Part shown: positions 15,574 to 50,926 of the stretch, in pieces | Layout of the letters: every line of letters begins with the position of its first letter | Position numbering within the stretch: the first letter of the stretch is position 1 | Origin: Aegilops tauschii subsp. strangulata | Lineage: Eukaryota > Streptophyta > Magnoliopsida > Poales > Poaceae | NCBI RefSeq assembly: GCF_002575655.3 | Contig: NC_053039.3 | Coordinates: 237,004,622-237,068,621 of the forward strand | Direction of reading: 5' to 3' | DNA: 64,000 nt | Translations under genes and position numbers: made by a program | Notes under the pieces: generated by a model | Told to the model about the DNA's origin: nothing | The model's database searches: none | The model's input: only the letters and a program-made list of their open reading frames with translations

Positions 15574-15602
15574 CACTACAAAAAAATACACTTCCGTGAT
15601 GA
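15574..15602 (+). repeat. CACTA-1 left terminal inverted repeat
   Basis: Begins CACTACAAAAAA, identical over 12 bases to the reverse complement of 50915-50926, and both ends share CCGTGA further in. The following 250 bp repeat motifs such as ACTTCCATGACGATAA in both orientations. Confidence 0.85.
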
Positions 15603-15835
15603 TACGTGTTTGTCACAGTAGGTCACATTTTCTATCATGCATGTACATCCATGACGATTTTATGACAGAACAAGATAGTCATACCTGTGATGTCGTAGAA
15701 GTGTTCCATGACATTACCAAAATTATCATCACGGAAGTGTCCACTTCCATGACGATAAATTGCGCGTCATAAAAGTGCTTTCGTCATGGGTGACCGACAT
15801 TTGGCATTGACCGTAACGGGTCACTGTTAAGCTAT

Positions 15836-16468
15836 TGGGTCCGGTTTTGGATCCGATAACCCGTTAACAGCCCAGACCAATGGGGATTTTCCACGTGTAA
15901 AATTCTCATTGGCCACAGGAAACATGTGTTGGCTCACCGTTGGGACAGATGTCATCCACTCATTGGACAGGAGGCGCCTATGATACGTCGACACGTGGCA
16001 CGGCCCAACAGAGGCCCATTCAGGTGAAAAGGTCGGCCCAGCTAAAGGCCCACCATGGTTTTTCAGACACTAGAGGCTGGCCCGTTAACAGCCTGCCATG
16101 TTTTGGGTCAAATTGAGGCCCATACCACATCAGGCCCGTTCACAGCCTGTCGTGTTTTGGGCCAAATTACGGCCCATATCGGATCAGGCCCGTTAATAGG
16201 CCACTGTTCTTTTGGGCCCATTCTAAGACAAGTTTGTATTTCAGCCTGTTAAATGCCCGTTTACCAGTTCTGCCCGATAATAGTTTCGGCCTGTTAGCAG
16301 CCCGTGGTGCATCTGGGACGTTGTCGGCCTGGTTTAACTTTAGGCCAGTTAACGGCCCATGCAGAAACTGGGCTATTTCTTGTCCGAAGGAACTTTAGGC
16401 CTCTTAACGGCCCGTAGTCTTCCTGGATAAATTTCAGCCCAACTGGCCCATCAGCCTGTTAATGGCCC
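15836..16468 (+). repeat. CACTA-1 left subterminal repeats (GGCCCGTTAACAGCC type)
   Basis: Many diverged copies of a short direct motif like GGCCCGTTAACAGCC occur at spacings of a few tens of bases. The same field resumes at 21428 after the Gypsy insertion. Such subterminal motifs are where CACTA accessory proteins bind in En/Spm; binding here is inferred. Confidence 0.75.
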
Positions 16469-17073
16469 TGTTCATGGTGTAATTTGGCTAATAGTTTGTA
16501 TGATCGGCCAAATTAATTTAAATGAATGTGGCCGGATTATTCGTTCATACATATATCTACCCGTGCTGTTTAATTCAAAATGCAGGCGTGGTCATAGTCC
16601 AGTGCAGATGACACATCAGGAGATCAGGTGCACTGAAGCTATTTACCCAGGACAAATATATGGGATTTTGCAAGGATTAGCAGCCACTAATAACAAGTTC
16701 TGGACAGATTATCATACACTAAGCTAAACTACCGCTGCTTAGGACAAGTCCTAACAAGCTTCGGCTACCAAGCTGAAGAATTTTGGCAGGAGCTATGGAG
16801 TCAAGAAGGTGCAACAATACATGATGGACTATCAATCATTATTATATGGTGTGATTAGCGACCTTGCCGGAATATTTTATTAATTTCCCTGTGGACCAAA
16901 ACGTATTTGTACATGAGTGTAGTTGGGACTTGGAATTATTACGTGTTGACACAAATTAGCAAGCAGATATGAAATCGAGGGGATGTTTGTTGCTTTGCTC
17001 GGAAAGCAATCGTTCATCGTCACGAAAGCACGCCGGTTATCTTAGTGTTGCGCGACAATTTTTCGTGCCAACA
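16469..17073 (+). repeat. 5' LTR (605 bp) with internal deletion removing the promoter
   Basis: Aligned to the 3' LTR it lacks the equivalent of about 21052-21325 (274 bp), including the TTTATATAAGGG promoter core. The break is at about 16971, between GCAGATATG and AAATCGAGG. Confidence 0.85.
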
Positions 17074-17074
17074 C

Positions 17075-17095
17075 AATTGGCGACTCCACTGGGGA
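17075..17095 (+). promoter_or_regulatory. Primer-binding site of the gag-only Gypsy element
   Basis: ATTGGCGACTCCACTGGGG lies one base after the 5' LTR. It resembles the TGGCGACTC...GGGGA type of site I associate with Tat/Ogre-like Gypsy elements; the tRNA was not checked. Confidence 0.6.
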
Positions 17096-17117
17096 CGGGA
17101 AGAAGAAGAGGCACACG

Positions 17118-20100
17118 ATGAGTACCGAGTCCAGGAACGGGAGCGACATCGACCCGGAGAACGTCATCGCCGTCACACTCGACGATCTATCGAAAGATGA
17201 TCGTCAGGAGCTTGAACAAGAGCTTAAGATAGAGATGGTCGAGCAACTAAAATTGAAGTTGACTGGATACTTCAAGACAAGGATCGGCGTCGTCAACAAG
17301 GTACATGTGCCGAACCCTTCAGATTCAATCAACACCGAGGTAAAAAAGTCAACCGAAGAAATTTCTCATCAGATTGATGTGTGCGTAGCTACCAAGTATG
17401 ATTCTGATGTGAAAACTACGACACACACAATTACTCAATCAGTAGCTAATAGAATTGAAGAATTTAAGGAGCAGCTTCACAAAGATCTTGAAAATATTTT
17501 ACCTAGTCATGTTCGGTCGTTAGTGCTGCAAATCAACGATGATTATTTTGACAAAAGACCGATTGAGAATAGTGGCTTCATTAACTTTCCTAGTAATATT
17601 CATACACTTGGAGCATCGGCTAATAACATTGAGCAGCCCCATGTGCCTTCAAATAGTGATCAAGGTGGCCGGAACTATGAGAGCAGTTCGGCTGATAATT
17701 TTATGCCTAGCGTAGCTGCTCCTATTGTCTCAACTTCGGTTCCACAAAATCACAACAGCAATAACCGAAGTGCTAGTTCTAATTCTAATTTGCAGCAAGT
17801 TTTTTTATCAAACTGTAGAATATAGTAAACCACCGTTGCTGACTATCGGTACCGGGATTCCGTGTGGGCCGGTACCCGATTCATATTTTAATGGGTCTCC
17901 GTTGCAAGCATCACAAGCTCAAATTTCTTTGCCGGAGTTTCCATCACGTGCTAGTGTTCCATCTGCTCCACACACTAGTTCTCTACAGCCAAATAATAGT
18001 TTTAAGGATAAGCTTGCTAGTATACTAAAAGAATTAGGTTTAGAACCTAAGAGTAAAGCGCGCACGTATCAAAAACCATACCCTGATTATTTGGACTCAA
18101 CGCCATATCCTCGTGGTTTTAGAATTCCAGAATTTGTTAAGTTTACAGGGATAGATGGTAGATCCACTTTTGAGCATGTTGAACAATTTTTAGCACAATG
18201 CAGCAAGGTCAATACATCGGATGTTTATATAGTAAAATTATTCCCTTTGTCTTTGTCCGGTACTGCATTTACTTGGTTTACAACGCTGGCTCCTAATTCT
18301 ATTTCAACATGGGCACAATTGGAGCAAAAATTTCATGATTATTTTTATGTCGATAAAACTGAATTTCGACTTTTGGATTTATCTATGGTTAGGCAGAAAT
18401 ATAATGAACATGTTCATGATTATATTAAAAGGTTTAGAGATGTCAAAAATCCGATGTTTTAGGTTGACCATAGCCGAAAAGGATTTAGCAGATCTTGCCT
18501 TTTCAGGTCTGCTTGCTCATATTAAGGATAAATTAGAAGGGCATGATTTTCTGGATGTTAACCATGTTTTGCAGAAAGCTTTGGTGCTTGAAAACCGGAC
18601 TAAGGATATTAAACAATATAGCCGGTTTAAAGATAATACTGATAATGAGAAGGGTAACCATGCAGGTAATGCCTTAGATTATGATAGTAATTCGGCTAGT
18701 GTAGATGACATTAATATATGTGTAGCTGAGTGGGTTCAAGTGCCAAAGTCAAAACCTTTTGCATGTTCTCCTTTGAAGCCCACACCTGCTAGAAGAGATG
18801 AAACAAAATACACTTTTGATGTTAGCAAGTGTGATAGAATTTTTGATATGTTACTGGGAAATAAAATAATTAGAGTGAGAGAGGGCCATGTAATTCCATC
18901 TCCAGAAGAGTTGGGTAGACGAGCTTATTGCAAGTGGCACAATTCTTTCTCTCATGCTACTAATGATTGTAACATGTTTCGTTGACAGGTGCAATCGGCC
19001 ATTAATGAAGGACGATTCACATTTACAGAAAGTTCTAAGATAAAGCTTGATAGTGACCCTTTTCCCATCAATGTGGTCGAGCTTGAGAGTAAGAAAATGC
19101 TTATTCGGTTGGATCAGACCGAATCCGCAAGAGAAAAGAATGTTGTTGGCGATAGTGCTCCTCCAAGGATGATCAAACCAAAAAATCCAGAAGTAGGAGT
19201 GTGGAGTCAATGGAAGAAGGAAACAAGCTCCAAGACCAAAGCCGACAGTTAGCCTGTTGTTGGAAAAGTACAACTCACGCAAGGCAAGCAGTGTGTTTAA
19301 CCGGCTTGGAGGTAATAAGTGTCCTAGATGTGCTTCTAGAACTACCAGTCATCGGCGACAGCAAGGAAATTCATATGACCAGCAGATGTATTTTAAAATG
19401 GATCCGACATATGGGGGATGCACCTCCTATTTATCCACGGTTTCCTCTGTGGGGTTTTAATCCTTCGGCGCCACATCCTACAAGGCCAGTATGTTATTCT
19501 CGACCAGAGTGAATTCCAGCAGGGCCTATGTACAAGAAATCATTACATGAAAAAGGAGTTCAGTTTAATCAGGAAGTGAGACCACGTGATGGCAATGTAA
19601 TCCGTGGTAATGATGACATGCTGGTCTTGGGAACTTCAAACTCGCCTAGGAGGCACAATACAAATGGCATAGTTCATAGGGGTGGTAAGAAGTTTGTGTG
19701 GGTGCCGGTGAGGCATGCTGAATCTAAGTCTATACAAAGTTCAAATGATTTGGATGCTTCTAATGTTATGAAACTTGGTGCACACCTATCGGCTGCAAGT
19801 GTAGAGAATAGTCCAGAAACAAGAGATGTTGATGCATCTAAGTTAGAGGCTAAGGTGCACACACGTTCAGAGAAGGAAGTTGTACATGCTAGTACTAATG
19901 AGTCGGCTGATGCATGTGCCAATATATTCACCGGAGGCATTGGGAAATCTAGAACTACGAGTACATATGATCAGCGGATGATTTCTTCGGCCAACGACAA
20001 AATATTTGCTCCCGGAACAACAATACGACAGTATAGGCCGAGAGACTCGGGGGGCAGTAGAATTATTCCAGCTGCACTAGGGACTAAACCAGGAACTCGG

Positions 20101-20312
20101 TGGTGTCTAATGGGACTCACACACACACTAAGAAACGGCATGTCCAGCGACTACGAGCATTTACAATGAAAGAAGAGATAGCCGAGAAGAAGCGCTTGTT
20201 CAATCGACAAAAACCAATGGTGCCGAAGATGGCATGGATGGAGAAGCGTGTTGTGGAGAAGTTTCCAAAATATCCCAATGGAAAATATTCAAAAAATTAC
20301 TATCCTAGCTAG
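17118..20312 (+). pseudogene. Gypsy gag polyprotein, frameshifted
   Basis: The reading begins MSTESRNGSDIDPENV at 17118 and runs to 17825, with a Glu/Lys-rich N-terminus. After a frameshift near a T7 run (about 17800), the Retrotrans_gag core follows: YPRGFRIPEFVKFTGIDG, GTAFTWFTTLAPNSISTW and YVDKTEFRLLDLSMV. Another shift near 18455 leads to EKDLADLAFSGLL and YCKWHNSFSHATNDC; a TGA at 18983-18985 interrupts it, and the frame resumes as VQSAINEGRFTFTESSK. Further pieces of the same polyprotein (SRKASSVFNRLGGNK, MYKKSLHEKGVQFNQEV) run to about 20312. The polyprotein never reaches protease or RT. Confidence 0.8.
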
Positions 20313-20543
20313 CATGTCAAAGGAGGCTTGAGATAATGTGGCCGATATATTATTCTAAATATCGCCCTAAGAAAATTCGGCTAACATATTATTTGAATAT
20401 ATCTCTAAAGAAGAAATTGGCCAATGTGCTATTTGGACATCACCCCTAAACAAATTATATGGCAAGTGAAGTTATCGAAGCCTTCCTATGGAAATGTGAT
20501 AGTGTTTTTGGTGAATACAATTATACCAAAAGCAGGGGGCATG

Positions 20544-21427
20544 TGTTCATGGTGTAATTTGGATAATAGTTTGTGATCGGCCAAATTAATTTAAATGAAT
20601 GTGGTTGGATTATTCGTTCATACATATATCTACCCTTTCTATTTAATTCAAAATGCAGGCGTGGTCATAGTCCAGTGCAGATGAAACATCAGGAGATCAG
20701 GTGCACTGAAGCTATTTACCCAGGACAAATATATGGGATTTTGCAAGGATTAGCAGCCACTAATAACAAGTTCTGGACAGATTATCATACACTAAGCTAA
20801 ACTGCCGCTGCTTAGGACAAGTCCTAACAAGCTTCGGCTACCAAGCTGAAGAATTTTGGCAGGAGCTATGGAGTCACGTACGCAGAAGGTGCAACAATAC
20901 ATGATGGACTATCAATCATTATTATATGGTGTGATTAGCGACCTTGCCGGAATATTTTATTAATTTCCTTGTGGACCAAAACGTATCTGTACATGAGTGT
21001 AGTTGGGACTTGGAATTATTACGTGTTGATACAAATTAGCAAGCAGATATGGTAGGTACAGCTTTGTACATGTAACAGAATCAAGGGATTTGTGCTGTTC
21101 GGTTTGGAATTGATGTTTTGGTTGTACACGTCATGTCCTTCGTGCCCTTTATATAAGGGTCCTGGCCGATTGAAGGAAAGGATAACAATTGATCTATTCA
21201 ACAAAACCAATCTACCTTTTCATGTATGTTTTATCTATCGTTCTTTTCCCACTGAACCCTAGCAGCCCTAGGGTTTGGTTCATCTTTGCCGGTTTGTGTT
21301 GAAAAGTAGTCGTGCCTCCTCTACGAAATTGAGGGGATCTTTGTTGCTTTGCTCAGAAAGCAATCGTTCGTCGTCACGAAAGCACGACGGTTATCTTGGT
21401 GTTGCGCGTCAATTTTGCGTGCCAACA
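20544..21427 (+). repeat. 3' LTR (884 bp) of the gag-only Gypsy element
   Basis: Starts TGTTCATGGTG right after the purine-rich tract and ends GTGCCAACA, followed by GGCCC. It keeps the promoter (TTTATATAAGGG near 21149) that the 5' LTR has lost. Small differences from the 5' copy include CACGTACGC inserted near 20876. Confidence 0.88.
21149..21158 (+). promoter_or_regulatory. TATA box in the 3' LTR of the gag-only element
   Basis: TTATATAAGG sits about 280 bp before the LTR end. It is absent from the 5' LTR because of the 274-bp deletion. Confidence 0.55.
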
Positions 21428-21850
21428 GGCCCATGTAACAGTTGGGCCTAATTATAGCCCGTGTTGAATCCGGTGTGCTTGTAGCTCATCTGATAATGGC
21501 TAGTGACACTTTTAGGCCTATGGCCCGCGTAGATACCGGCCTGATTAAAGTCCATAATTTTATTGGGCCAAACAGGCCCGAGATATATTTTGGCCTGTTA
21601 ACTGCTCGTCCTATTTGGGCCAAACATGGGCCTTAGGCAGTTTCGGCCTGTATTGGCCCATGAATTTTTTGGCTCAACGCTAGCCCAATCTAGGTTTTAG
21701 CCTGTTAAAAGCCCATGGTATTCTCTGGCCCAGCTGGACAGAACTTTACTCGGCCTGTTAAAGGCGGGAAACAACTATAGGTTTAGACCTGCTAATGGCC
21801 CAAGATGATTATAGGCCCATGTTTTGGCCCATATGAGTAACGGGTCGGCT
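21428..21850 (+). repeat. CACTA-1 left subterminal repeats, continued
   Basis: The field of GGCCTGTTAA-type and GGCCCATG-type motifs interrupted at 16468 resumes here and fades near 21850. The first five bases (GGCCC) are the duplicated target of the Gypsy insertion. Confidence 0.7.
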
Positions 21851-22096
21851 TGAAGACCGACAACACTGAGATCCATTGAACCTTCCGACCTAAATTACAG
21901 CATACCGACCAAGAATAAACCTAGACTACACAACAAATAAATTACAGCATATTACATCCCCTCGGCATCAAAGTTCGCCGCCAGTGATAATACAGGGCAA
22001 CCAGACAGCAGATTACATAAACTGGGTAGGTCGCCACCAGTGGAAGTTAACAGGCGGACAAAATAATAGACAGAACCAACAACACTTCAACACACT

Positions 22097-24276
22097 TCAA
22101 GAAAGGTTAGCCCGGCCCAGGAGCTGCAGCGCAAGCAGCTTAGCAACCTGATGAGACTGCACTTCTCTGGCACTCATATCCACCAACTTAAGCTGCATAG
22201 CATCAATAAATGTCCTGTACTTACGATTAATCTTGCATAGAGATTGGAGTTCCAGTCGTATTTGAGCGGAAGCATGTATTTCTGCTTGAATTTCAGACTG
22301 AAGAAGTCGAACAGATTCAGACGGCGACTTCATCGAGCTTGTGTCACTGAGTAAATTTGACACTACATCAAGATGTGACTTCGTGGTTGTATCCCTACCC
22401 TCAATATGTGTTGCCTTCTCCTCTGGAATATGTGTTAGAGGGACAAACAATGGGTTCGTCTCACTATCATTGTGGCAGTTCTTCCTAGCAGTAGTGTTGT
22501 CACCCTGAAAGAGAGACAAGTAGGTAGATAACAGGTTTTGCGCGTATAAGCATCAGCGCTGTCAATTCATCTCATTTCTTTGTCAGAAATAAAGAGACAC
22601 GGTTTAAAATAGCATTAACATAATAGGCATTGTTCATACTTAAGACGACAGGAAATGGCATTGTGCAGGAGCGGCCAGCTTCACCAGACCACTGGATTAC
22701 AGATCAAAAACACAAGCATAGATGTAATTCTAAACAACGTATAAGCATGAATGGTGAGTGTACTGTCAATTTATACCATTTCAGATTGGTAAATAAAGAG
22801 ACACGATTTAAATAACATTAATATAATATGGCATTGTTCATAGTTGAGACATAGCAGGATATGACATTGTGCTGTTGTTGGTAGTCTCACCACACCACTG
22901 GATTACAGATCAAGAACACAAGCATACACATAGTGCTAAAGAAGATAACTTTCTATGTTTAGTTTAATTTACATGGTACGAATAAGGACCTAGATTGTAC
23001 AACTAAAGACTGAAATTGAGAAGGACAAACTTATGTTTATGAACTTCTACTTTATAAACTTTGAACAAGCAATTTGATGCAGACGACAAAAATAAACAGC
23101 ATTTGCACTCATTGCTATCCAAATATAAACAACAAAGTTTGAAGGCTCGATGAGGACAAACTTACATTAGTAGTGAAGACAAGCTCTATAAAGGCCTTGT
23201 CCATATTGATGGGGGGGGCAATTCAAGAAGTTTACCGCAGACTCTTCTTCAAGAGTATTGCCTTTATTCTACATTTTGTTAAGAGTAAATATAGATGTGA
23301 AAATATAGGAACAAATGGCGATTATTTAACTTAAGATGCAGAGTACAAATGTAAATACAACATACAGGCAGAAGGCACTGACAAGAGCAATGCGGAGCTA
23401 AACTTCTTCAGTAACATTGTTTTTGTTCAATATTTTGGCAAGAGTAAATGTAGATCTGATGTGTAGAAAAATGGAGGACAAGGGAAAATAAGCTGCAAAG
23501 TGTACATGAAGAACTAGCTGACAAATATAAGTACAGTGATGAAGGACAACAGATACTTACAAGAATAATGCAGAACTAAATTTCTTCATAGGCATTGGGT
23601 TTATTCTACCATAATTTAAGCATTAATATATATCTGATAATTAGGAGCGAATAGTGGATAAGCAAGCTATAATGCACAATGATGTCACATAATCCACCAG
23701 GTATGAATAAGGACAGCGATAGGACAATAGGTACTCACAAGAGCAAAGCAGCGACCAGCATAGTTGCGATATCCTAGGTTTTGCAGCGCTGGTTCTATCG
23801 CCAATATACGTCGGGTGCTATGTGATTTCTCCGGTAGTACCACCTTTTTCAAGGACTTTGCTTGTACTCCTTCAGGTTCTGCAATCACCCTCTTCCTTTT
23901 GGATGTCTGAAACACAAGAACAACATTTGAATGGAAAAACATGGTATGACGACAAATGGAATAGGTGTTGATAATGGATGGGCATGGCATCTTCACATAT
24001 ATCATGAGTAAACTAAGCAGATGGCGGTGCAACGAAGCAAAAGAAATGCAAGACACCTTATGCAAGATATGTGCAACCAATAAAACCTTGCCAAATTAGA
24101 ATAGGCGCCTTATTGGGTGAACAGGATAGGCCATCTGCCTTTGACTCCTTGAGCTCAGAATAGTCATTAGGATCATATTCTGAATACGAATCTATAGGTC
24201 GGGAGCATGTGGGTTTCATTGCATCCACAATGGACCTCAATCCCTTGATGCCAAGTTTGTTACACATTGAACTGTT
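22097..24276 (-). CDS. Multi-exon gene of CACTA-1, unknown; possible accessory protein
   Basis: Exon-like blocks on the minus strand have canonical borders. Exon A (24276-24087) reads LGIKGLRSIVDAMKPTCSRP and ends at AAG/GT. Exon B (23906-23739) starts after TTTCAG, reads SKRKRVIAEPEGVQAKSLKK and ends CTT/GTGAGT. The last exon (22504-22097) starts after TTTCAG, reads GDNTTARKNCHND and ends with a helical, possibly coiled-coil stretch (RLLQSEIQAEIHASAQI) and a stop. Between 23,740 and 22,510 short repeated blocks of the AAGTTTAGCTCCGCATT type, each before a GT, could be small duplicated exons. The A-to-B junction phase does not match, so an exon or border is wrong. A basic, nuclear-looking protein in this place could be the TNPA-like partner of a CACTA element, but no family match is claimed. 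Confidence 0.45.
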
Positions 24277-25351: not shown

Positions 25352-25359
25352 TTTTGAAA

Positions 25360-27050: not shown

Positions 27051-27059
27051 TGATCTTTT

Positions 27060-28076: not shown

Positions 28077-28749
28077 TCTCTACTCTTATAAAAAAACGAG
28101 TTGGTGATGATGGTGTGCCTGCCATCTTGTAGTATAGACCGTCCGACCTATATCTGACAGATAGAAAGCAAAGTACGACAATTTTACAAAAGATACCCGC
28201 ACCTCTCTCCCCATTTAGAGCATGATTGGTTTGCTATCAATATTTGGCTAGCCAAATGTTGGAATTGCCAAATATTGGCAACTTTATGTGAGATAGGCAA
28301 GACAACTCGGTCACCAACCAAGTAGTAGCGAATATTTGGCACAATGCCAAACATTGGCATGCCTATTTTTGGCACCAAACCAATTATGCTCTTACAGACA
28401 TGGCCTTGCCTCATTCATCCTTATCTCCCACAACCTCATTGCTGAGCAATTAAAAAAGGAAGTCTCTGGAACAATCTAGCATGGTGGCCGCTACCGCCTG
28501 CCGGCGCCGTCCATCCCCATGCCTCCGCCCAGTCTGACCACCAGTCACCACCACGCTCCACTCCTCCTCACCTTATCTCTCATCTTTCCTTTTTTCTATG
28601 AAATTATCGAGATACCAGTTTTTCGATAAAATTCTCGAGATATCATTAGTTTTTACACATGGGATTACTCTTGCATGGGTCAATCACAACAGGTGTTTTG
28701 TAAAAAAATGCATAGTGATGTTTCGTGCAATGCACGAGCATCTTGCTAG
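28077..28749 (+). mobile_element. Non-autonomous Helitron, 673 bp
   Basis: The element begins TCTCTACTCTTATAAAAAAA after host A (28076) and ends CTAG (28746-28749) before host T. A short GC-rich hairpin, CGTGCAATGCACG, sits about 10 bases before the end, which is the classic Helitron 3' structure. There is no target duplication and no Rep/helicase. A Tourist-like MITE (28218-28391) lies within it. The 5' start resembles common Triticeae Helitrons from memory. Confidence 0.75.
28218..28391. mobile_element. Tourist-like MITE (174 bp, TTA duplication) inside the Helitron
   Basis: Ends GAGCATGATTGGTTTG and, inverted, GAGCATAATTGGTTTG, with TTA at 28215-28217 and 28392-28394. TTA/TAA three-base duplications are typical of PIF/Harbinger MITEs. 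The interior has repeated TTTGGC/GCCAAA words that fold back on each other. Confidence 0.8.
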
Positions 28750-30745: not shown

Positions 30746-31132
30746 CTACTTCTCACATGCTGGCCAGACGCCGTCGTTCTCCTTCCCGGCTTTGTCGGTG
30801 ACACCCCACCGTGCTTGGATCTCTGCCGACCTCTCCGTAGCAGCGCGTGCGTCCTCTTCTTTCTTGCGGCGGTGGGCCTCTCTTTTCTTGAGTGCTTTCT
30901 GAATTTTCCGCTCCCTCTGTGCGGCTTTGGCCGCCTCTTGCTCTACCGCCCATTCGGCCTTGGCAGCTTCAAATTCTGCCCACATAGGTGTGAGGTCGCG
31001 AGCGGCGATGAACTTGGCACGACGGGATGCCATCGCTTCCCTACCATTCTGTGTGCGGTCGTGGGCGGCGAGGAACTCGGCGCGGCGGGATGCCATCGCT
31101 TCATTACCGGTTAGTGTGCAGTGCAGTGGCAT
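30746..31132 (-). CDS. Hypothetical 128-aa protein with internal repeat, helical
   Basis: The frame begins MPLHCTLTGNEAMASRRAEF and ends with a stop at 30746-30748. Residues 11-48 contain two copies of EAMASRRAEFLAAHDRT-like sequence, followed by a long charged Ala/Glu/Lys/Arg helix (KAEWAVEQEAAKAAQRER, KKREAHRRKKEEDARAA) that would form a coiled coil. No domain is recognised. It sits within the duplicated gene-like block of CACTA-1, so it is probably captured or degenerate host sequence. The plus-strand frames over the same bases are shadows. I cannot assign a function. Confidence 0.4.
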   Translation of the reverse strand: MPLHCTLTGNEAMASRRAEFLAAHDRTQNGREAMASRRAKFIAARDLTPMWAEFEAAKAEWAVEQEAAKAAQRERKIQKALKKREAHRRKKEEDARAATERSAEIQARWGVTDKAGKENDGVWPACEK

Positions 31133-31149
31133 GAACGATGCTTGGTGAC

Positions 31150-32150
31150 AGCTCTGGGGTGGAGTGGCCGGACAACTGTATAGTGCATTGGTTTGTCAAG
31201 AGCTCAAGGACAGAAGACGAAGGAAATTTGGATTCCCCTTAAATCCTGGTCATTTATTACTGACTAAAATGCATTGGCGGTCATCGAACTTGTCTTGATA
31301 GCTCACTTTGATCATTGTATACGAGATATGGTGATTATACGGTCACTGGCTCAGTGTATAGCTCCGTATTTGTCTGGTTGACCAGTCAAACAATCCGCAT
31401 GTGCCTCATCAGCTCGTGTTCTTTATCTATTTATCTATGCGGGCCTACCTTTCAGTGGAGAAAGAAATAAAAACCGAAACTATGCGTATGTGAGGAATCA
31501 AACCACGGACTCGTCGCTGCAACGCACACTCGTCAGCCAAATGAAAATGAAATACTTTGCGTTAAATGCACAAACGGATTTTTTTTATATTGTACGTGAT
31601 GCACACATTAGCGCACACCGTCCATAGAGGCAAGTAGCATGTACGTGTGCAGACACTCAAGCTCACGCTGTCAAACCATGCTAAAGCATGCACGTCGCCC
31701 TCTCAATCAAAGTCCTGCTCATGGCCCAACGCAAATGGCGAGCCCGTCACCTGCGCGCCCCGGCGGTGCCTGACATTACTATGTAGACATTTGCTGGAGG
31801 CCTCCGCGAACACCAAGCATGTATTCACCTGGCTCAACACCAACGATCATACTCGTGACTCGGCGCCTTGCTCATGTATATCGTCCATCACAACAACAAT
31901 CTATAAAACAGCCTAGCTAGAGAGGGTACTATGGTATGGAGTATGTACTATCGTGAGCGACCGATCATAGCGCCACTGCACATGAGTGTGTGTCTGATCG
32001 ATTTGTCCATTATTCGTAAGTTATGCATGGTTGTGTGGTGTCTAATGGTGGTCGTGGAAGGCTAGCTGGCGACAAGAGCGGTTGCATGGATGCTTGGTTG
32101 TCAATACGTGCCGCATACGCTTCAAAGGCTCGTCATCCATGAGTTCACAT
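31150..32150. other. No feature recognised
   Basis: Unique-looking sequence between duplicated segments. I see no convincing frame, terminal repeat or tandem structure. Confidence 0.5.
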
Positions 32151-33949: not shown

Positions 33950-36450
33950 GGACCGCTTCCAAGCCCGCTTTTGACCGCCCTGGCCCACCAGAACCCCCCA
34001 CCACCACCTCCCCCGCGCGCGCTCCCCCCTCAGACGCCAGCTGCCCGCATTCATAGCAAGTTGTACCAGTAAAATTCTGGGCTATAAGCCCGCTTATGTG
34101 GAGGAGAGAGAGGCATTGACAAAGTCAAGGAGTGGGATCCGCAGGAGCCCATCTCTACACGTGCTCCTAGGTATAAAAAAACTAATTCTAAAAAAAGAGG
34201 CATAAAACACAATTGTGTCTAAAAAAAGAAAGGTAAAAAACATTTGAGAGGAAATAGATAGAGAGAAAGTGAGAAAAATTTGTAACCTTATAGTCAACAC
34301 TATGGTAGTATTACATGAGGAAGGAGGGAGTGGTGCACATGCCAAGTTCATTGGGGTGCCGTGTTTCACACTCCTCCGTCGTAACAGTGGAGACAATAGC
34401 TTTCGTCAAAAATAAACAATGAATACTCGTTGCCCATCCACTATACCGGAAAGAATACTTTCATTCGCCGACATGTGGGACGTCGACCATCCTAGTCCAC
34501 CTGCCATGCACAAAATTATCCTGGTCCACCCCGGTCGTAGCGCAGGCCCAACCTTTCCCACTGTAAGTTGGTCAGACGAAGGAACCTGAAGGAAATATGC
34601 CCTAGAGGCAATAATAAAGTTATTATTTATTTCCTTATTTCATGATAAATGTTTATTATTCATGCTAGAATTGTATTAACTGGAAACTTGATACATGTGT
34701 GAATACATAGACAAACATAGTGTCACTAGTATGCCTCTACTTGACTAGCTCGTTAATCAAAGATGGTTGAGTTTCCTAGCCATAGACATGAGTTGTCATT
34801 TGATTAACGGGATCACATCATTAGGAGAATGATATGATTGACTTGACCCATTCCGTTAGCTTAGCACTCGATCGTTTAGTATGTTGCTATTGCTTTCTTC
34901 ATGACTTATACATGTTCCTATGACTATGAGATTATGCAACTCCCGTTTACCGGAGGAACACTTTGTGTGCTACCAAACGTCACAACGTAACTGGGTGATT
35001 ATAAAGGTGCTCTACAGGTGTCTCCAAAGGTACTTGTTGGGTTGGCGTATTTCGAGATTAGGATTTGTCACTCTGATTGTCGGAGAGGTATCTCTGGGCC
35101 CTCTCGGTAATGCACATCACTTAAGCCTTGCAAGCATTGCAACTAATGAGTTTGTTGCAGGATGATGTATTACGGAACGAGTAAAGAGACTTGCTGGTAA
35201 CGAGATTGAACTAGGTATTGAGATACCGACGATCGAATCTCGGGCAAGTAACATACCGATGACAAAGGGAACACCGTATGTTGTTATGCGGTCTGACCGA
35301 TAAAGATCTTCGTAGAATATGTGGGAGCCAATATGAGCATCCAGGTTCCGTTATTGGTTATTGACCGGAGACGTGTCTCGGTCATGTCTACATAGTTCTC
35401 GAACCCGTAGGATCCGCACGCTTAAAGTTCGATGACGGTTATATTATGAGTTTATGTGTTTTGATGTACCGAAGGTAGTTCGGAGTCCCGGATGAGATCG
35501 AGGACATGACGAGGAGTCTCAAAATGGCCGAGACGTAAAGATCAATATATTGGACGACTCTATTCGGACTTCAGAAAGGTTCCGAGTGATTCGGGTATTT
35601 ATCGGAGTACTAGAGAGTTACGGGAATTCGCCGGGGACAAGTATTGGGCCTTATTGGGCCATACGGGAATAGAGGAGAGAGGCCAAAAGGAAGGAGGCGC
35701 GCACCCCCCCCCTCTGGTCCGAATTGGACAAGGGGTGCAGCCCCCTTTTCCTTCTCCCTCTCCCCCTCTTTCCTTCTCTCCTACTCCAACAAGGAAAGGA
35801 GGAGTCCTACTCCCGGTGGGAGTAGGACTCCCCCCTTGGCGCGCCCTCCTCCTTGGCTGGCCGCCTCCCCCCTTGCTCCTTTATATACGGGGGCAGGGGG
35901 CACCCCATAGACACAACAATTGATCTCTTGATCTCTTAGCCGTGTGCGGGGCCCCCCTCCACCATAATCCACCTCGATAATATCGTAGCGGTGCTTAGGC
36001 GAAGCCCTGCGTCGGTAGAACATCATCATCGTCACCACGCCGTCGTGCTGAAGAAACTCTCCCTCAAAGCTCGGCTGGATTGGAGTTCGAGGGACGTCAT
36101 CGAGTTGAACGTGTGCAGAACTCGGAGGTGCCATGCGTTCGGTATTTGATCGGTCGGATCGTGAAGACGTACGACTACATCAACCGCATTGTGCTAACGC
36201 TTCCGCTTTCGGTCTACGAGGGTACGTGGACACACTCTCCCCTCTCGTTGCTATGCATCACCATGATCTTGCGTGTGCGTAGGATTTTTTTGAAATTACT
36301 ACGTTCCCCAACAGAACCATCATGACTTCGTTGAATTCCACTTCTTCAAGAAAACTTACTGTACCCGCAGTACTGCTACCACACGCGAAGACTGGACGGC
36401 ACTGTACCACGTCATATCACTGAAACCCACTAGGCCAAACTAGCCCGCCT
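33950..36450. repeat. Duplicated segment, copy 3, with solo LTR inserted
   Basis: Shares TGACCGCCCTGGCCCACC (33972) with copies 1 and 2, and CGCCGACATGTGGGACGTC (34467) and CCAACCTTTCCCACTGT (34548) with copy 1. The homology to copy 1 is cut at 34586 by the Angela solo LTR and resumes at 36314 with GAACCATCATGACTTC. Further on it shares CGGCACTGTACCACGTCATA (36394) with copy 2. Confidence 0.75.
34587..36313 (+). mobile_element. Solo LTR, Angela/WIS type, 1,727 bp
   Basis: Starts TGAAGGAAATATGCCCTAGA and ends TTCCCCAACA, flanked by GAACC at 34582-34586 and 36314-36318. There is no internal region, so it is the product of recombination between two LTRs. The paralogous segment at 30371-30420 shows the same sequence with a single GAACC and no LTR. 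A TATA-like TTTATATAC lies near 35880. This copy is a different insertion from the broken Angela element that hosts CACTA-1. Confidence 0.95.
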
Positions 36451-36460
36451 AGGATTTGTA

Positions 36461-37045: not shown

Positions 37046-37758
37046 CTATTTCTTTTCATCGATCTCTCGGGCAATGACCACAGCACGGACAGCGGCATGG
37101 GAATTGATCTCTGGGGCAATGTCCACCGCGACATCGGAATTGATCTCTAGGGCGATGTCCACAGGATGGACAGCGGCATCGGAATCGATCTCCGGGGCGA
37201 TGTCAATAGGACGGACCGCTACATAAAAATGATCTCTGGGGCGTTGTCCACAGGACGGCCCGCGACATCGGAATCATCAAGGACGTCCACCGGCACCTGC
37301 ACAACCCTAACATATTAGCAAGCACATTGCAAATAATCAAAAACCACAACTATGGTAAGCCATTATTTTTTACCTTGTGCAGCTCACCGGGGGATCCCAT
37401 CCCTCCAGGGGCCATCTCCTCGTCCTCGATGGGGGCCATCACCTTGCCAGGGGAATACTGCTTCTCAACGGCGACTATCTCCTCAAACTCGGCCTTGAGC
37501 CTCACATAGGTGGCCATTAGAGTTTTTGGGGTAGGCACGGTGGGGCCCTTGCTATTCTTCCAATTTTCTTTGAGGAGTTCATTCGCCAACGTCGTCAACT
37601 CTTTGGCCGGTGCTTGTTTCTTGGAGTTCTTCGTCTCCATGGGTTGGCCCGCCAACATGCTCAACTCGTTGGTCGGTGCTCGCTTCCTGGAGAGCGCTGT
37701 CTCCAGTGGGTTGTCCACCGGCAACTGTTTGCCTAGTGCTCGAGGATCCATCAATGAA
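37046..37758 (-). pseudogene. Two-exon hypothetical gene with VDIAPEI repeats, frameshifted
   Basis: Exon 1 (37758-37375) starts after GTTTGTCAG and gives MDPRALGKQLPVDNPLETAL, then Lys-rich repeats (SRKRAPTNEL, SKKQAPAKEL), ending CACAAG/GTAAAA. Exon 2 (37296-37046) starts after TTGTGCAG and continues in frame as VPVDVLDDSDVAGRPVDNAP, but meets TAG after EIIFM. In the next frame a tandem peptide repeat follows (VDIALEINSDVAV, VDIAPEINSHAAV), with units of about 27-45 bp, ending REIDEKK and stop. One extra base near 37222 explains the break. Borders are canonical, so this was a real spliced gene. No domain is recognised; cellular role unknown. Confidence 0.5.
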
Positions 37759-43381: not shown

Positions 43382-43390
43382 GGCACATAT
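43382..43390. repeat. Target duplication GGCACATAT of LINE-2 (right copy 46238-46246)
   Basis: Nine identical bases bracket the LINE-2 insertion, including its inverted 5' piece. Confidence 0.88.
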
Positions 43391-43695
43391 TTTTTAGAGA
43401 AAAGGCATGCGCCCGACTTTACAAATAAAGCCATAAGGCAGGTAGCAAACACACATAGGTTCGAAACACAGAACCAGCCAGACCCCAACCATGGGTCATA
43501 CGAGGGAAAGTTAAAACAGGGGTACATGGCTCCCTAGCCAGTACACGGCACGCAGGCCGGAAAGTTTACTGCCCAAAAGAAACTAGCCAGCAACGCGCAA
43601 ACCAACTAAGCATCCTGCTCTTGTCTGCATAGATTAGACGCCGAGGCCCAAACTTTGGAGATCAACACAGATAGCATCCTGGTCGTCCACCTTAG

Positions 43696-44625
43696 TCAAT
43701 GATTTCCACTACTGCAAGAGAGCACACGATTTAAATAAGCAAACAGCAGGTTAGCCGGGAACACATGTTCAATAGTAAATTTATTCCTAGTTGTCGAGAG
43801 GGACCAGCATAAAGCTCCCAGGCCCACCCAAAAGATACGTCTGGTAACGCCGGACAAATTATTAGCCAGGGCCCGAAGCTCAGAGAACGAACCAGGGTCC
43901 CAGGCTACATGAAGACACTCTCTAACGCAACTCCGGATGAGCTTAGCCAAGACACAGTGGAAGAAGATACTAGCCGTATCCTCCAAGTCACCACAAAAAG
44001 CACAGAACTGTGAGCCCGGACCATTCCTCTTATGGATATGGCCAGCCGAAGGCAGTCGGCCCCTGAAAGCTTGCCATAAGAAAATCTTAACCTTAGGAGG
44101 GATCCGGGCTTTCCAGATCTGAGAGAAACGGTTAGTAGGAGTGCCACCAATAAGCTTAGAATAAAGCGATTTTATTGAAAAGCGCCCAGAAGCAGTGTGC
44201 GGCCAAATCACCGAGTCCAAATTCGCCGAGAGCGTGGGGAAGAAGGCAATAAGACGTTGCCAATCTTCAAACTCTTCAGGCGACAAGGACCGGCGAAAGG
44301 CCAGGTTCCACCCATGGGCAGCCAGCTCTGCAATAGAGATATCCGGGTCAGGGCAGTAAGAGAATAAGGTGGGGAAGGTCACGGAGAGCGGTGAATCTCC
44401 ACACCACCAATCCAGCCAAAATCTAATGGAGGAGCCATCCCCCACTACAAACTTAACGTGCGCCTGGAAAAGAGGCCTTACTTTCACCAAGGCCTTCCAA
44501 AACTGAGAACCACCACATGAGTTAGCAAACATCGGGCTAGAGAGAGGAAAATATTTGGCCTTAAGTATAGAAAACCATAAGGGTTGATCCCCACCACTCA
44601 TGATTTTCCACCGCCATTTAATCAT
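43696..44625 (-). pseudogene. LINE-2 ORF2 C-terminal domain (zf-RVT type)
   Basis: A 309-codon frame reads SGGDQPLWFSILKAKYFP, FVVGDGSSIRFWLDWWCGD and SQIWKARIPPKVKIFLWQ, then a Cys/His cluster, CAFCGDLEDTASIFFHC, which are the usual plant L1 ORF2 tail motifs. The stop at 43696 lies about 300 bp from the A tail, leaving a 3' untranslated region. A stop and short gap separate it from the RT part above (44701). Confidence 0.88.
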
Positions 44626-44700
44626 AAGACATGGTTCATGATGGCAGTGTTAATAATACCCAACCCTCCAAGGTTTTTGGGTCTGCACATCAGCTTCCAT

Positions 44701-45980
44701 TTAACGAAATGATTTGCAATGATTATCAGCAGCGTTCCAATAAAAAGCCCCACGGTGCTTATCAAAGCCAACATGGGTACCTCCCGAGAGTAGATAAAAG
44801 CCCATCAAGAACATGGGAAGAGAGGTCTGACATGCATTGATCAATGCCACTTTACCCGCGTTGGTATTGTATCTCCCACGCCAGGGTAGGAACCTGTTGC
44901 CCACCTTGGTTACCACCGGGGCAAAATCCTTCGCATGAAGCACATCCGGGGATATGGGGAGGCCCAAATACTTGAAAGGAAAGGACCCTAGCTTACAATT
45001 AAGAAGATGAGCCACCCGCAGGGCTTCATTGTCACGCACACCAGTGAAAATAACCTCACTCTTCGCAAAATTTATCTGAAGGCCCGACATAGCTTCGAAG
45101 CAGAGGAGGATGAATTTGAGATTAGCGAGGCAATAATCATTCAAATCGACCATAATAATTGTGTCGTCCGCATACTGAAGGTGGGTAATCCCTTCAGGGA
45201 TAAGATGAGAAATGACCGGAGATATATGCCCATGGTTAGCTGCTCCGGAGAGGATACAAGATAGGGCGTCCGCCACAAAATTAAACAAGATGGGAGAAGC
45301 AGGATCGCCTTGCCTTAGGCCCCTACCATTGGCAAAAATACTTACTAACCTGGCCGTTCACAGAAATGGCAGTGTGGCCTCCCAAGACCATCTGCATGAT
45401 TCTATGGACAAAGGGCCCCTCAAACCCTTTAGCCAGAAGAACCCTTCTCGAAAAGGCCAGCTCACCGAGTCGTACGCCTTCTCAAAATCAAGCTTTAGAA
45501 TCATGACTTTCGACTTACAAATTTTGAGGTTGTGCACTATTTCATGCAAGCAAAGGATCCCATCCAAGATGAATCGGCCTTTAATAAAGGCGGATTGAAA
45601 GGGGCTGATGGTACGATGAGCAATGGGGGAAAGGCACGTGGCGAACCCTTTCGCAGGGAACTTAGCGAAATTGTTAATGAAAGAAATAGGTCGAAACTGC
45701 GTCATCAAATCAGCTCCTTTGACTTTAGGAATGAGAGTAATGACAGCATAGTTAAGACGAGAGATGTCCACCGTCCCTAGGCAGAAACCTTGGATGATCT
45801 ATAGACGAGCTCCCGCAACTGCGGCCAGAATTTTTTAAAGAAGGGAATAGAGAAACCATCTGGCCCCGAGGCAGCGTTCGTGTTGGCCGAGCTAATCACC
45901 TTCCAAATTTCCTCATCAGATAAGGGAACCATTAATTCCGCATTTTCACCAGAGGATATCCTACTATCAGCATCCCAAAA
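44701..45980 (-). pseudogene. LINE-2 reverse transcriptase
   Basis: From 45960 downward: VPLSDEEIWKVISSANTNAA, LNYAVITLIPKVKGA, FQSAFIKGRFILDGIL, ILKLDFEKAYDSVSW, then a frameshift near 45,440 into the YADD part: HLQYADDTIIMVD, FPFKYLGLPIS and KVALINACQTSLP. The endonuclease is missing because the body stops at 45992. A stop after 45771 and the shift make it non-functional. Confidence 0.88.
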
Positions 45981-45992
45981 ATCAGAAGAAAT

Positions 45993-46237
45993 CCGTGACC
46001 TTCCCCACCTTATTCTCTTACTGCCCTGACCCGGATATATCTATTGCGGAGCTGGCTACCCATGGGTGGAACCTGGCCTTTCGCCGGTCCTTGTCTCCTG
46101 AAGAGTTTGAAGATTGGCAACGTCTTACTACCTTCTCCCCCCCCCCGCTCTCGGTGAATTTGGACTCGGTGATTTGGACGCACACTGCTTCTGTGCGCTT
46201 TTTAGTTAAATCGCTTTATTCTAAGCTCATTGGTGGT
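45993..46237 (+). repeat. Inverted copy of LINE-2 sequence 44143-44385
   Basis: Plus strand reads TFPTLFSYCPDPDISIAELA and LAFRRSLSPEEFEDWQRL, the same peptide that the minus strand encodes at 44385-44143, with a few changes. Its outer end meets the target at shared bases GGCAC. Confidence 0.9.
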
Positions 46238-46659
46238 GGCACATATGGTAGCGAACTGTATGGCATGGAGTCTAAATATTACAAACAAGTTGGTTGACGC
46301 ATATATTCGTCTGGCACTTAATCAGTCTGCACGCCAGGGATGCTCCATTTCAGTTGAACTGCACAAAAAATTTGGGTGGTTCATTTTCTCAACCGCCTCC
46401 TTTCTTGTCTGCAATGTAGAATTTTGGCGAGCTACAGGACCAAGATGAGCCAGTAAACTAGTTGGATGAAAGTAGTGGCCAAGTTGCTCAAACCTCCCTC
46501 GGCACGAGGCCAGAATTTGAGGATAAACCTACAAGCAAAGTTCAGATTGTCTGCGCTGCCTCTTATGTACTCGAAAGTTTACTCGTGCAAGCATTAATTT
46601 TAGCAAGAAGTACCTCCGACTGAACACCATTTACCAGTCTGTACCCTAGGTAATTAAAG

Positions 46660-48100
46660 TTCGTCCATGGATGATATTGGCTGTGATCTCAATCATTTGG
46701 TTGCATAAACATACCGAACATGTGTATATCTGAATCTTTTTGTGAATTATCTATGAATATTGTCATGTGATCTATCAATCATTTGGATGCATAGACATGC
46801 TGACCTTGTGTATATATGAATCTTTTGAGTTGTTGATTGTGAATGTTGGCTATGAATATGAACGTGTCCTGTGAACCTGAGTTTGATACGAATGTTTACC
46901 TGTTCTATTGTACTTGTGTGTGAACTTGTTAGTATGTCTACTGTGGGATTTGTGACATGTGGGTGTCAACAGCACACCTTCTTCCCAAGAAGAATTGCAC
47001 CTGCTTTTTTAGGGTAGCAACGGCGCATCAGCTCTTTTTAATATTTTCCTCTATCTTTCCCCCTCCCCCGCTCAACCTCTGCCGTAATGTTTTCGGCCTC
47101 AAAACAAGCATAGTACTGCGTTGTTTTTGGGGCTTCATGAAAAATCGAGTCCTAGTTTCTGTAGGTTGGCCCGCCCAGCAAATGGGTTGTTGGTCCACCA
47201 CGGACTGGGAGGCTAAAAATACAAGTTGTATGGTGCAGAGGCAAGTAAAAAAACGCCATCGAGAGCCATCCACTGAAGAAAAAAATCGCGTCTGACGTGC
47301 TTCTTCTTCAGTCGCGCCGCCGGCCCCCTCTTTAATCTAGTTCGCTCAGGGATCTAGCTGGTATCATTTTTTCCCAGAGGGCGAACAAGTATCAGCTAGG
47401 CCTAGGTAGGCGTAGCCCACGACATACAGAAACAGTGGTTTCAACTTATTTTTTGAGGTCCATACCAGCCTATGGGCCTCCTAGCGTAGGTTTTACTTTT
47501 TCTTAAAGATCGCCAGCCCAATGTATTTTTTTAATAAAACGCAGATCCCTGTTCTATTTATCTATATATATATGAATAATAATGCTATGTCCAATTTATG
47601 TTTTCCCTTCTAACCACATTATATATATTTATATTATTACTATTATCGTATATTTTATAGAGACTTATATATACATTATAAAAACATCCCACGTGTTATT
47701 AACTTATAAAAGTAAATGTTTAACAGAAGTTGGCAAGGAAAATCCTAGTTTTTTTTGACTCACAGGTAGGAAAATCCTGGTGATTGCATACAAAAGCTTG
47801 CAAAGATGTTAAGGACCAATGTAATAATAATGCGCTCATTTTTATTTTGAGCAATAACTCGCTAATTTGTTAATTTTATATATAAAAAATGTGTCGCCCC
47901 AGTTTATTTTTTGATATTAATTGCTCCTTCTAACCTAACATTATATATAGAACGAGCCCAACTAATTCGTGTATTTCAAGAAAGTGCAAATGGGCTGGCA
48001 TTTCTTAGAAAATATTGAATGGGGCGCATTGATGCGAAATTATTTGTTCACCCAACCCAGCAAATGGACTGTACATTCTAGAAAACATGGGTTAAATATA
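46660..48100. other. AT-rich CACTA-1 interior, no gene recognised
   Basis: 46680-46830 repeats ATCAATCATTTGG(A/T)TGCATA twice. 46960-47330 is a moderately GC region with short frames only. 47520-48060 is very AT-rich. No domain seen. Confidence 0.5.
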
Positions 48101-48106
48101 TGCCAC

Positions 48107-49350
48107 ATTTTTGCAGGCTGACATGTGGGCCAATAGGTCAAAGCCTACGGAGGGCGTTGTCAACTTGGTCAACAAATTATTATGACATCCACAACCATTG
48201 GATTTATATCCAATGGCCGGCATGCACCTTCAATCTCTCGTCTTCTTCCTCCAGCGTCGCCGGGATCGCCTGGTCCGGCCTCCGGCGGCTAGCGTCTCTG
48301 CTTAGCACGCATCGCTGCAAAGCCTACCCCACCGCTGGCTAGGCTATCCCTCCACCCCTCCACACCTCCTGTTATTCTCCACCGACTGCAGCCACACGCC
48401 GCACCAGAACTAGTTATAACCCTTGTACTCCTCTCAATCTGCGACTCCACTGCCGCGTCTTCCCATCTCTGGGTCGTTCCCGTCCGGGGCATCGCCGTCG
48501 TCCACCGCCTCGCTGCGCTCGGCGCGGCATGGTCAACAAACGAGAGTCATCGGAAGAGGACTGTACGTGGAGATCCTGACGGCTGGGACCCACGAGGTCC
48601 ATGGTCGCACGCAAGGAAAGTTCCTCCTTATTAAGCTGGAAAAAATTCCTCCCCCTGACAGCTAGGATCCACCAGCTGTATCTTCGCACGGAAGGAAGTG
48701 CCTCCTTATTATGCGAAAAAAACAATTCCTCCCATTGACAGCTGGGACCCGTCAGATTTGGTGGCTGACTTGTGGGCCTACTAAGCGGACGTGTACGCAG
48801 GGCTTTGTCAACTTAATCAACAAATGATTCTAGCAGCTAGACCGTTGGATGTTAATCCAACAGCCGTGCTCCTTCTTCAACCTCTGTTCTTGCTCCTGTC
48901 TCCCGTGGGCGCCAGTGCTGCCGCGCACCCGAACCAGTCAAGTTTCCCACTCCTCTCCATCTGCGACTCCACTGTTGCGTCTTCCCCATCTCCGGGTCAT
49001 TCCAGTCTGGGGCCTCGCCGTCGTCCACCGGCCTTGGTGCGTTCGGCACGGTGTGGTCAACGTGGTCAACAAACAAGAGTCATCGGAAGATGACTGTATG
49101 TGAGAGGCTGACAGTGGGGACGCACCACGCCCATGGACGCATGCATGCAACTACATCCTTTTTACCCTAAAAAATAATGTTTTCTCCCCTGACTGCTGGG
49201 ACCCACCAGCTACATCTTCGCACGCAAGGAAGTGCGTCCTTATTACGGGCAAAAAAAATATCCCCCCTGACAGCTGGGACCCAACAGCTATATCTTCGCA
49301 TGCAAGGAAGTGCGTCCTTATCCTCCCTGACAGCTGGGACCCACTCGGTC
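48107..49350. repeat. CACTA-1 right subterminal repeats, outer-inner module
   Basis: A module starting GCTGACATGTGGGCC (48117) and GTCAACTTGGTCAACAAAT (48159) recurs at about 48766 and 48807 as a diverged copy. GACAGCTGGGACCCA-type words followed by TCTTCGCACGCAAGGAAGTG recur several times between 48570 and 49340. Confidence 0.7.
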
Positions 49351-49639
49351 AAAGCGTACGTAGCGTTGTCTGTCTTGTGGGAACGTGTACGTACATACTG
49401 TTCGATCGGTCGCTTTGCAACGATGAACCGTGGCCGAGTAAGTAGCGGCACATGTCATAGTATAGCCCCCCACGTAGCAGTTCAAGCTGTCCCGTCTAAA
49501 CCGTGTACACGTACATACAACCACATGCCAAAAAATACGGCCACGTACGTACATACGGATGGGGTCTCGAACGCCTACTCGTGCATACGTACGGCCAGGG
49601 CTCGTGTACATGGCTGGGTTGGAACGGAGAAACTGCATC

Positions 49640-50020
49640 GTCGACATGTTCATGGGGAGGCAACGGAATGCGTCGTGTTCATCGGGAGGCAACGGAACAC
49701 GGCTGTTCATTGGGAGCAACTGGCTTGGATAGAACAATCGATGGAAACGAGGCCTGGCGTACCGCAGGACGGAGGAAACGGCCTTGTGTTCGACCGGCCA
49801 CGGTCGACACAGGATCCTGTTCATTGGGAGGGGTCTGGCGTACCGCAAAACAGAGGAAACAGACTTTTCTTGGACCTCCTACGGTCGAAACGGGGTCCTG
49901 TTGATCGGGAGGGGTGTGGCGTACCGCAAAACGAAGGAAACAGACTTGTGTTGGAGCGCTACGGTCGAAACGGGGGTCCTGTTAATCGGGAGGGGTGTGG
50001 CGTACCGCAAAACAGGACTC
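49640..50020. repeat. CACTA-1 right-end array, 81-bp unit
   Basis: GGCGTACCGCA recurs at 49756, 49837, 49918 and 49999, exactly 81 bp apart, each followed by a GGAAAC...GGTCGA word. Because 81 is divisible by three, long open frames arise here by chance. Confidence 0.85.
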
Positions 50021-50460
50021 CACGGGATACTGTTCATCTCCACCCCTCCTCTAGCCTCCACGGGCTACTGTTCATCCACCGTCGACCTCCTCCAGCCTCC
50101 ACCTGCGACTGTTCATCCACGGGCTCCTGTTCATCCAGCCTCCACCGCGCGCTCCTCCACCGGCTACTGTTCAACCAGCGCTCTCCACGGGGTCCTGTTC
50201 AACCACCCCTCCACGGGCTACTGTTCATCTAGCCCTCCACTGGCTACTGTTCAACCAGCCCTCCACGGGGTCCTGCTCATCCAGCCCTCGACGGGGTCCT
50301 GTTCATCCCACCCCAACCGGCTCGATCGATCGGGGTCCTGTTCATCCAGCGGCAACGGCCTCTACTACCACGGGGTCCTGTTCATCCAACCCCCCACCAG
50401 GAACTGTTCATCCAAACCCCCCCAACAATGCTCCACTGTTCATCCAGGGAAGGAGGCAGC
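50020..50460. repeat. CACTA-1 right-end array of short CTGTTCATCCA units
   Basis: At least a dozen units like CTCCACGGGGTCCTGTTCAT at irregular spacings of roughly 25-45 bp. Different in sequence from the left-end GGCCCGTTAA field. Confidence 0.85.
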
Positions 50461-50898
50461 AGGGTTCGGTCGGCTTCAGTTAGCAGCAGTAGCGAAGGAA
50501 TCACTCGGGTTCAGTTAACAGCAAGGGATCGATCGCTCGGGTTCAGTAACGTAGCTAGTGCAATCACTCGCGTTTAGTTAGAGCCCAACGCCTCGCACAC
50601 ACGCGCGTACGTACGAGAGAAACGGGCATCGCTCGGCTCCCGACCACCCACCGTAACCGGGAACTCCCCCGATATTTTCCTCGCCCTTGCTTCTACCACG
50701 GTTTTTCCGTCATGGACGGCCCAAAGAATGTCATGAAACATCGTCTCCGGCCCGCGCAGGAAGAAAAGCCCATTTTCTATCATGATTTTTTGTCATAGAA
50801 GTAGGAGCCCACCACATCTATGATGATACCGGGTTTTGTCACAATTATCGTCATAGAAGTGTCATAAGCATGACAGAAAAAGTTTCGTTCGGCCCGAA

Positions 50899-50926
50899 AT
50901 GTCACGGATGTCTCTTTTTTGTAGTG
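50899..50926 (-). repeat. CACTA-1 right terminal inverted repeat
   Basis: Ends TCTTTTTTGTAGTG; the reverse complement begins CACTACAAAAAAGAGACATC. GAT follows at 50927-50929. Confidence 0.88.

Follow-up and report, generated by a model that had tools for sequence, protein, structure and literature searches.

A 35-kb insertion in a Copia gag of Aegilops tauschii looks like a large non-autonomous member of an abundant CACTA transposon family

A CACTA element inserted exactly into the gag region of a Copia retrotransposon

The stretch of DNA analysed here (henceforth the window) comprises 64,000 nucleotides of Aegilops tauschii subsp. strangulata (GCF_002575655.3, NC_053039.3:237,004,622–237,068,621, forward strand). 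It contains a Copia retrotransposon whose gag region is split by a block with the termini of a CACTA transposon, and this block in turn holds a Gypsy long terminal repeat (LTR) retrotransposon, a solo Copia LTR, a long interspersed nuclear element (LINE), a palindromic insertion resembling a miniature inverted-repeat transposable element (MITE) and three repeated open reading frames (ORFs), referred to as ORF22, ORF30 and ORF37 (Table 1). As argued below, the block very probably belongs, as a single non-autonomous element, to a plant CACTA (En/Spm-type) family of very high abundance, and it inserted into the Copia gag as one unit.

The 12-mer CACTACAAAAAA is present at 15574 on the plus strand and at 50926 on the minus strand, i.e., inverted and face to face as terminal inverted repeats starting with CACTA, and GAT directly flanks both ends on their outer sides, in agreement with the 3-bp target site duplication of CACTA (En/Spm, DTC) elements. 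Within the window, exact copies of this 12-mer were confined to these two ends, and the 22 other sites starting with CACTAC each deviated from it in at least two positions. An 11-base match with one mismatch allowed is by itself not rare (4 seen vs. 1.74 expected). The 250 bp inside each end nevertheless aligned with a score of 38 (vs. a maximum of 32 among 500 mononucleotide shuffles and 28 in the wrong orientation), and TTTCTATCATG was found near both ends as a related subterminal motif; the subterminal likeness of the two ends is modest and beyond chance.

Other plant transposons are known to undergo composite transposition, and the interval could in principle consist of two separate CACTA elements, or be a composite of two with the outer ends acting together. 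However, when both ends were compared in sliding fashion with the whole window, interior places never scored above 29 (end vs. end: 38), leaving no inner family end above background, and the sister copy described below has both ends, the same interior and a target duplication of its own. Two elements side by side were rejected on these grounds, and a composite origin is extremely unlikely as well; the concern of an earlier note on this DNA that each end might belong to a separate element thus did not hold.

Joining the flanks without the insert yielded PDKI-VIDRVL in a single frame, with a stop directly after VL and a second stop 7 residues further on, implying that the host gag was broken anyway. 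The joined 102-residue fragment (with X at the stops) scored 28.8 bits against Pfam Retrotran_gag_2 (82 residues over 82 profile positions; cut-off of 27), vs. 19.9 bits for the left flank alone. Moreover, an uninterrupted second copy of the host Copia element (L007, on contig C7 of the genome searched below) aligned without gaps along all 120 bases of the joined flanks, with a single GAT retained. Since the reading frame, the gag profile and the uninterrupted copy agree, the insertion is real and exact, which bears out the earlier claims of one CACTA insertion with matching inverted ends and GAT on both sides, and of gag codons that rejoin once it is removed. A misjoin would not jointly produce the matching GAT copies, the gap-free empty target and the colinear sister that lies on a different chromosome-size contig, and an assembly artefact is therefore hardly credible.

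The same ends and interior recur throughout the genome

The genome searched measured 4.10 Gb in 692 contigs, with the window located on C5. A left-end query returned 2730 first-look candidates, an interior-kilobase query 3194 and a right-end query 918, and for each query all 40 scored places (the window included) were matches, at 97–100%, 93–100% and 93–100% identity, respectively. The scored matches of all three queries were situated on C1–C7, five of which measure 508–652 Mb; if the genome is diploid, as this distribution suggests, no homoeologous locus is to be expected.

For five of the 39 left-end places scored besides the window, a stretch of 40 kb was retrieved. The one on C3 held a full-length, nested sister element (G000:C3:463441018-463474350; 33,333 bp) with both ends and with TAT on both sides. 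Its interior is colinear with that of the window element, with full or partial matches for 47 of the 48 500-bp tiles, in the same order save for a duplicated block near 39 kb. The sister shows an intact single target at both points where the window element carries the LINE or the solo LTR (the LINE target copy being one base different), which suggests that both insertions arrived after the two lineages split. The region of the Gypsy site failed to align across the join. A partial third copy on C1 follows the same order over 26.3–41.3 kb of the window and lacks the solo LTR; no element end was present in the 30 kb fetched around it. The other four fetched stretches all share the left terminal block, and three of them also a piece like 21.9–22.4 kb, the remainder of their matches being scattered short repeats and Copia LTRs; a right end like that of the window was found in none of the four. 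Elsewhere on C5, a right-end match and an interior match neighbour each other near 36.73–36.75 Mb with inconsistent strands.

The search with the terminal ends for copies sharing the same interior, as the earlier note had advised, thus found the full-length C3 sister. Together with the partial C1 copy and the three queries that each matched in 40 of 40 scored places, this shows a repeated interior that, in the sister at least, accompanies both ends. Because the interior recurs in order and in many copies, it looks like the family's own repeated sequence and not unique cargo.

No transposase domain found in the interior, and ORFs that belong to repeated families

A six-frame Pfam search of 15574–50926 (E-values up to 0.1, with one frame of 15574–45570 at E-values up to 0.01) gave no match to a Transposase_21-type transposase, a hallmark of autonomous members only. 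Above the cut-off, only Retrotrans_gag of the Gypsy element and RVT_1/zf-RVT of the LINE were found, and a nematode C2 domain row below the cut-off (E-value of 0.068) was taken as noise. The element as present is therefore non-autonomous, in line with the earlier remark that no transposase was visible. A scan of 36 records (335,589 bases) for transposase motifs gave no match either, which is weak evidence as it had no positive control.

ORF37, ORF22 and ORF30 were searched against 5.8 billion proteins and proved to have homologues in 115 clusters (123 candidates), 57 clusters (84 candidates) and 298 clusters (1223 candidates; 120 clusters listed), respectively. Nearly all of the listed homologues are unnamed, with a few annotated as "hypothetical protein", and they are situated on short contigs that presumably represent plant DNA. 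Pfam revealed no domain above the cut-off in the window ORFs, nor in 32 of the 115 ORF37, 26 of the 57 ORF22 and 32 of the 120 listed ORF30 homologues; weak rows (E-values of 0.0026–0.1, in one to four members each, and below the cut-off where shown) were treated as noise. ORF30 had 0 matches among solved structures and no relatives on prokaryote contigs, and viral contigs held no relatives of the left-end pattern, ORF37 or ORF30. Some metagenome proteins join pieces that are distant in the window, i.e., ORF22 beside the left subterminal block (P0151), ORF37 beside ORF30 (P0115), and a left terminus starting within another ORF22 copy (P0171), so that the ORFs are linked with one another and with the left end, though only at the protein level.

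In public metagenome protein sets, fragments of these transposon ORFs (P0002, P0211 and others) make up hundreds of clusters, two of which have 920 and 1075 members. These clusters probably derive from plant DNA present in metagenomes or read archives.

The absence of a transposase of its own, which is a trait of Pack-CACTA elements, and the three interior ORFs without an above-cut-off Pfam domain might also fit a cargo-moving (Pack-type) CACTA element that took host genes or gene fragments into its large interior, and CACTA gene capture is on record in wheat, with 140 events on chromosome 3B (PMC4290129). However, the interior is common to the sister in the same order and recurs many times, and the ORFs are high-copy and change near-neutrally between two copies (dN/dS of ca. 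0.77 for ORF37 and ORF30, window vs. sister), which hardly points to selection on this pair of copies. Host-gene capture was moreover tested by Pfam, protein homologues and (for ORF30 alone) solved structures, and nothing pointed to a host gene; no source gene was identified from Pfam or protein homologues, the host genes of this genome not having been searched. We therefore regard cargo moving as improbable, although an ancient capture may predate the amplification of the family. The earlier note had suggested a cargo-moving element carrying multi-exon genes and duplicated gene-like blocks. Short internal duplications do exist in the interval, but multi-exon genes were not borne out, two of the ORFs being near-neutral vs. 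the sister, and the cargo-moving interpretation found no support given an interior that recurs in the sister, in the C1 copy and among the 3194 candidates (40 of 40 scored). The element instead looks like a typical large member of its family and not like one that carries captured host genes.

A step in identity and a possible hybrid origin of the left part

A number of observations weigh against a simple single-family reading. The candidate totals stem from a loose first look of which 40 per query were scored, and hence count candidates and not confirmed copies, while just one complete sister was seen. This sister contains stretches of its own, the largest of ca. 4.05 kb (L011:1160-5215), in which neither the ORFs of at least 90 amino acids nor the motif scan revealed a transposase, and there are likewise stretches of the window element with no counterpart in the sister (about 24.28–25.04 and 46.95–47.58 kb). 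Short exons can escape a single-exon Pfam search, and no autonomous partner's transposase was tied to the family, there being no genome-wide PF02992 search behind this. Finally, best-hit tiles of window vs. sister are 79–88% identical between the left end and 25.5 kb and mostly 88–97% from 25.6 to 49 kb (three tiles are lower, at 79% over 76 bp, 84% and 87%, and one is unmatched), after which identity in the right-end repeats is 72–81%. The step near 25.1–25.6 kb indicates that window and sister are perhaps not of one simple lineage.

One explanation for this step would be a hybrid element, in which the left part (15574 to ca. 25.5 kb) came from a different CACTA subfamily through recombination or through fusion of neighbouring elements, the latter being a published route for Pack-type elements (PMC8903248, PMC13317346). 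In this respect, the left 466 bp of the window are 85.9% like those of the sister and 89.2–93.8% like seven ends with other interiors in the fetched stretches, and those of the sister are 90.6% like one of these seven ends. However, this comparison is biased since five of the seven ends were picked for their best match to the left end of the window (the other two being incidental), and faster change in the left region would yield a similar step. We consider a hybrid origin tentative, and rather doubtful on balance, and exchange of ends between CACTA subfamilies possible.

More speculatively, and unlikely on present evidence, a CACTA unit of ca. 26 kb without transposase could have reached full-length copy numbers in the hundreds or thousands by amplification in trans, with ends and interiors reassorting among subfamilies and one dominant left end driving several giant interiors. 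Should such exchange of ends and interiors be true, these families would lend themselves to studies of how a large cut-and-paste element multiplies without its own transposase.

Nested insertions and the net length of the element

Table 1. Coordinates of the features in the window.
Feature	Position	Strand	Remarks
Host Copia, first part	12295..15573	+	5′ LTR 12295–13614 (truncated at 12295), leader, gag start
Target site duplication GAT, left copy	15571..15573
CACTA element as present today	15574..50926	none	35,353 bp; its three family ORFs on the minus strand
Left terminal block	15574..16039	+	89.2–93.8% like seven element ends with other interiors in fetched stretches
Gypsy target duplication GGCCC, left	16464..16468
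Later Gypsy LTR retrotransposon	16469..21427	+	Only Pfam domain Retrotrans_gag; LTR identity 96.7% (590/610)
Gypsy target duplication GGCCC, right	21428..21432
ORF22, repeated family ORF	22097..22552	-	No Pfam domain; homologues in 57 clusters; mostly absent from C3 sister
Palindromic MITE-like insertion	28217..28392	none	Same point empty in C3 sister and C1 copy
ORF30, repeated family ORF	30746..31195	-	No Pfam domain; homologues in 298 clusters, 120 of them listed
Solo-LTR target duplication GAACC, left	34582..34586
Later solo Copia LTR	34587..36313	+	1,727 bp; empty site in C3 sister
Solo-LTR target duplication GAACC, right	36314..36318
ORF37, repeated family ORF	37353..37757	-	115 homologous clusters; no above-cut-off Pfam domain
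LINE target duplication GGCACATAT, left	43382..43390
Later LINE (RVT_1, zf-RVT)	43391..46237	-	Empty site in C3 sister
LINE target duplication GGCACATAT, right	46238..46246
Tandem and diverged direct repeats ahead of right end	48110..50393
Right terminal block	50727..50926	-	918 first-look candidates; 40 of 40 scored match, 93–100%
Target site duplication GAT, right copy	50927..50929
Host Copia, second part	50930..52891	+	Remaining gag, GAG-pre-integrase, SH3-like integrase-side domain

The Gypsy element, the solo LTR, the LINE and at least one MITE-like piece all inserted into the CACTA element. Removal of the first three, plus one copy of each of their target duplications, leaves a net length of 25,801 bp, confirming the earlier estimate of about 25 kb after subtraction of later insertions. 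As the MITE-like insertion is missing from both the sister and the C1 copy, the core is slightly shorter still. The nested insertions may have preceded or followed the hop into the host Copia, and the hopping unit could thus have measured anywhere from ca. 25.8 to 35.35 kb. The stack of nested insertions can be compared with both the sister copy and the uninterrupted target, and its order of events is clear.

With a substitution rate of 1.3e-8 per site per year, Kimura two-parameter (K2P) distances translate into ages of ca. 1.24 million years for the Gypsy LTRs (distance of 0.0322; 603 sites), 2.5 million years for the inverted pair within the LINE (242 sites) and 2.72 million years for the host Copia LTRs (distance of 0.0707 over the 313 overlapping sites in the window). 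The host Copia element is thus old. The use of the nested-insertion and host-LTR ages as a bracket for the date of the hop was dropped, because a nested insertion can travel along with the CACTA element.

The inverted pair consists of the 5′ end of the LINE (45992–46236) and its own internal part at 44144–44385, which are 92.7% identical and lie within one target duplication. This resembles a twin-priming product, yet the inverted piece overlaps the uninverted part.

Sequence surrounding the element

The host Copia element and the solo LTR are both of what we take to be the Angela type. The 3′ LTR of the host element (63265–64000) runs past the window edge, and between this LTR and the remains of pol lies other sequence, including tandem arrays at 57172–59499 (units of ca. 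0.5 kb) and 60731–61505 (units of 247 bp). A minus-strand ORF of 269 amino acids (55953–56762) by eye resembles the start of an F-box-type plant gene. On the other side of the window, long minus-strand ORFs at 483–1112, 3906–6103 and 7378–8943 appear LINE-like by eye, and we assume them to encode an endonuclease, a reverse transcriptase and a zinc-knuckle protein.

Proposed mobility and comparison with known CACTA elements

Taken as a non-autonomous family member, the element would depend on the transposase of a related autonomous element, which would recognise both ends and move the intervening block in trans by cut and paste, a route named for CACTA elements in PMC4158355. The three repeated interior ORFs would then be remnants of the family's own non-transposase gene(s), not captured host genes. 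A striking 35-kb gene-like insertion can accordingly be read as a copy of an abundant transposon plus later insertions, and should be annotated as host-gene capture only with a source gene in hand.

Gene capture by CACTA elements has been published (PMC4290129, PMC13317346, PMC8903248), and Pack-CACTA and other Pack-TYPE elements (PMC8903248, PMC13317346) are similar to the element studied here in having CACTA ends without a transposase and in moving in trans (which for the present element is the likely route). They differ in that the interior found here is repeated within the family and that no host gene source was found, with host genes outside the search.

Another known CACTA element is Caspar_2050O8, of 11,666 bp, with transposase and CTG-2 genes (PMC2756281). 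Its second, non-transposase gene might correspond to the ORFs reported here, whereas the present element has no transposase domain and about twice its length in net terms.

Large Triticeae CACTA (DTC) families of wheat and barley such as Caspar, Jorge, Vincent and TAT (PMC4290129, PMC6097303, PMC5738225) share with the present element the CACTA ends, the high copy number, the regions rich in tandem repeats and the frequent nesting. Three short stretches of the left end had no match in the literature text, and families are defined by 80% identity across 80% of the length of a reference element (as quoted in PMC5738225). CACTA elements account for 15.5% of the genome of bread wheat (PMC6097303) and are the largest wheat transposons, highly variable, with tandem repeated motifs and lengths up to 30 kb (PMC4290129), and in barley the large Gypsy, Copia and CACTA elements together range from ca. 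2 to >30 kb (PMC5738225). The gross length of the present element exceeds 30 kb because of its later insertions, and its net size of ca. 26 kb fits within this published range for CACTA elements.

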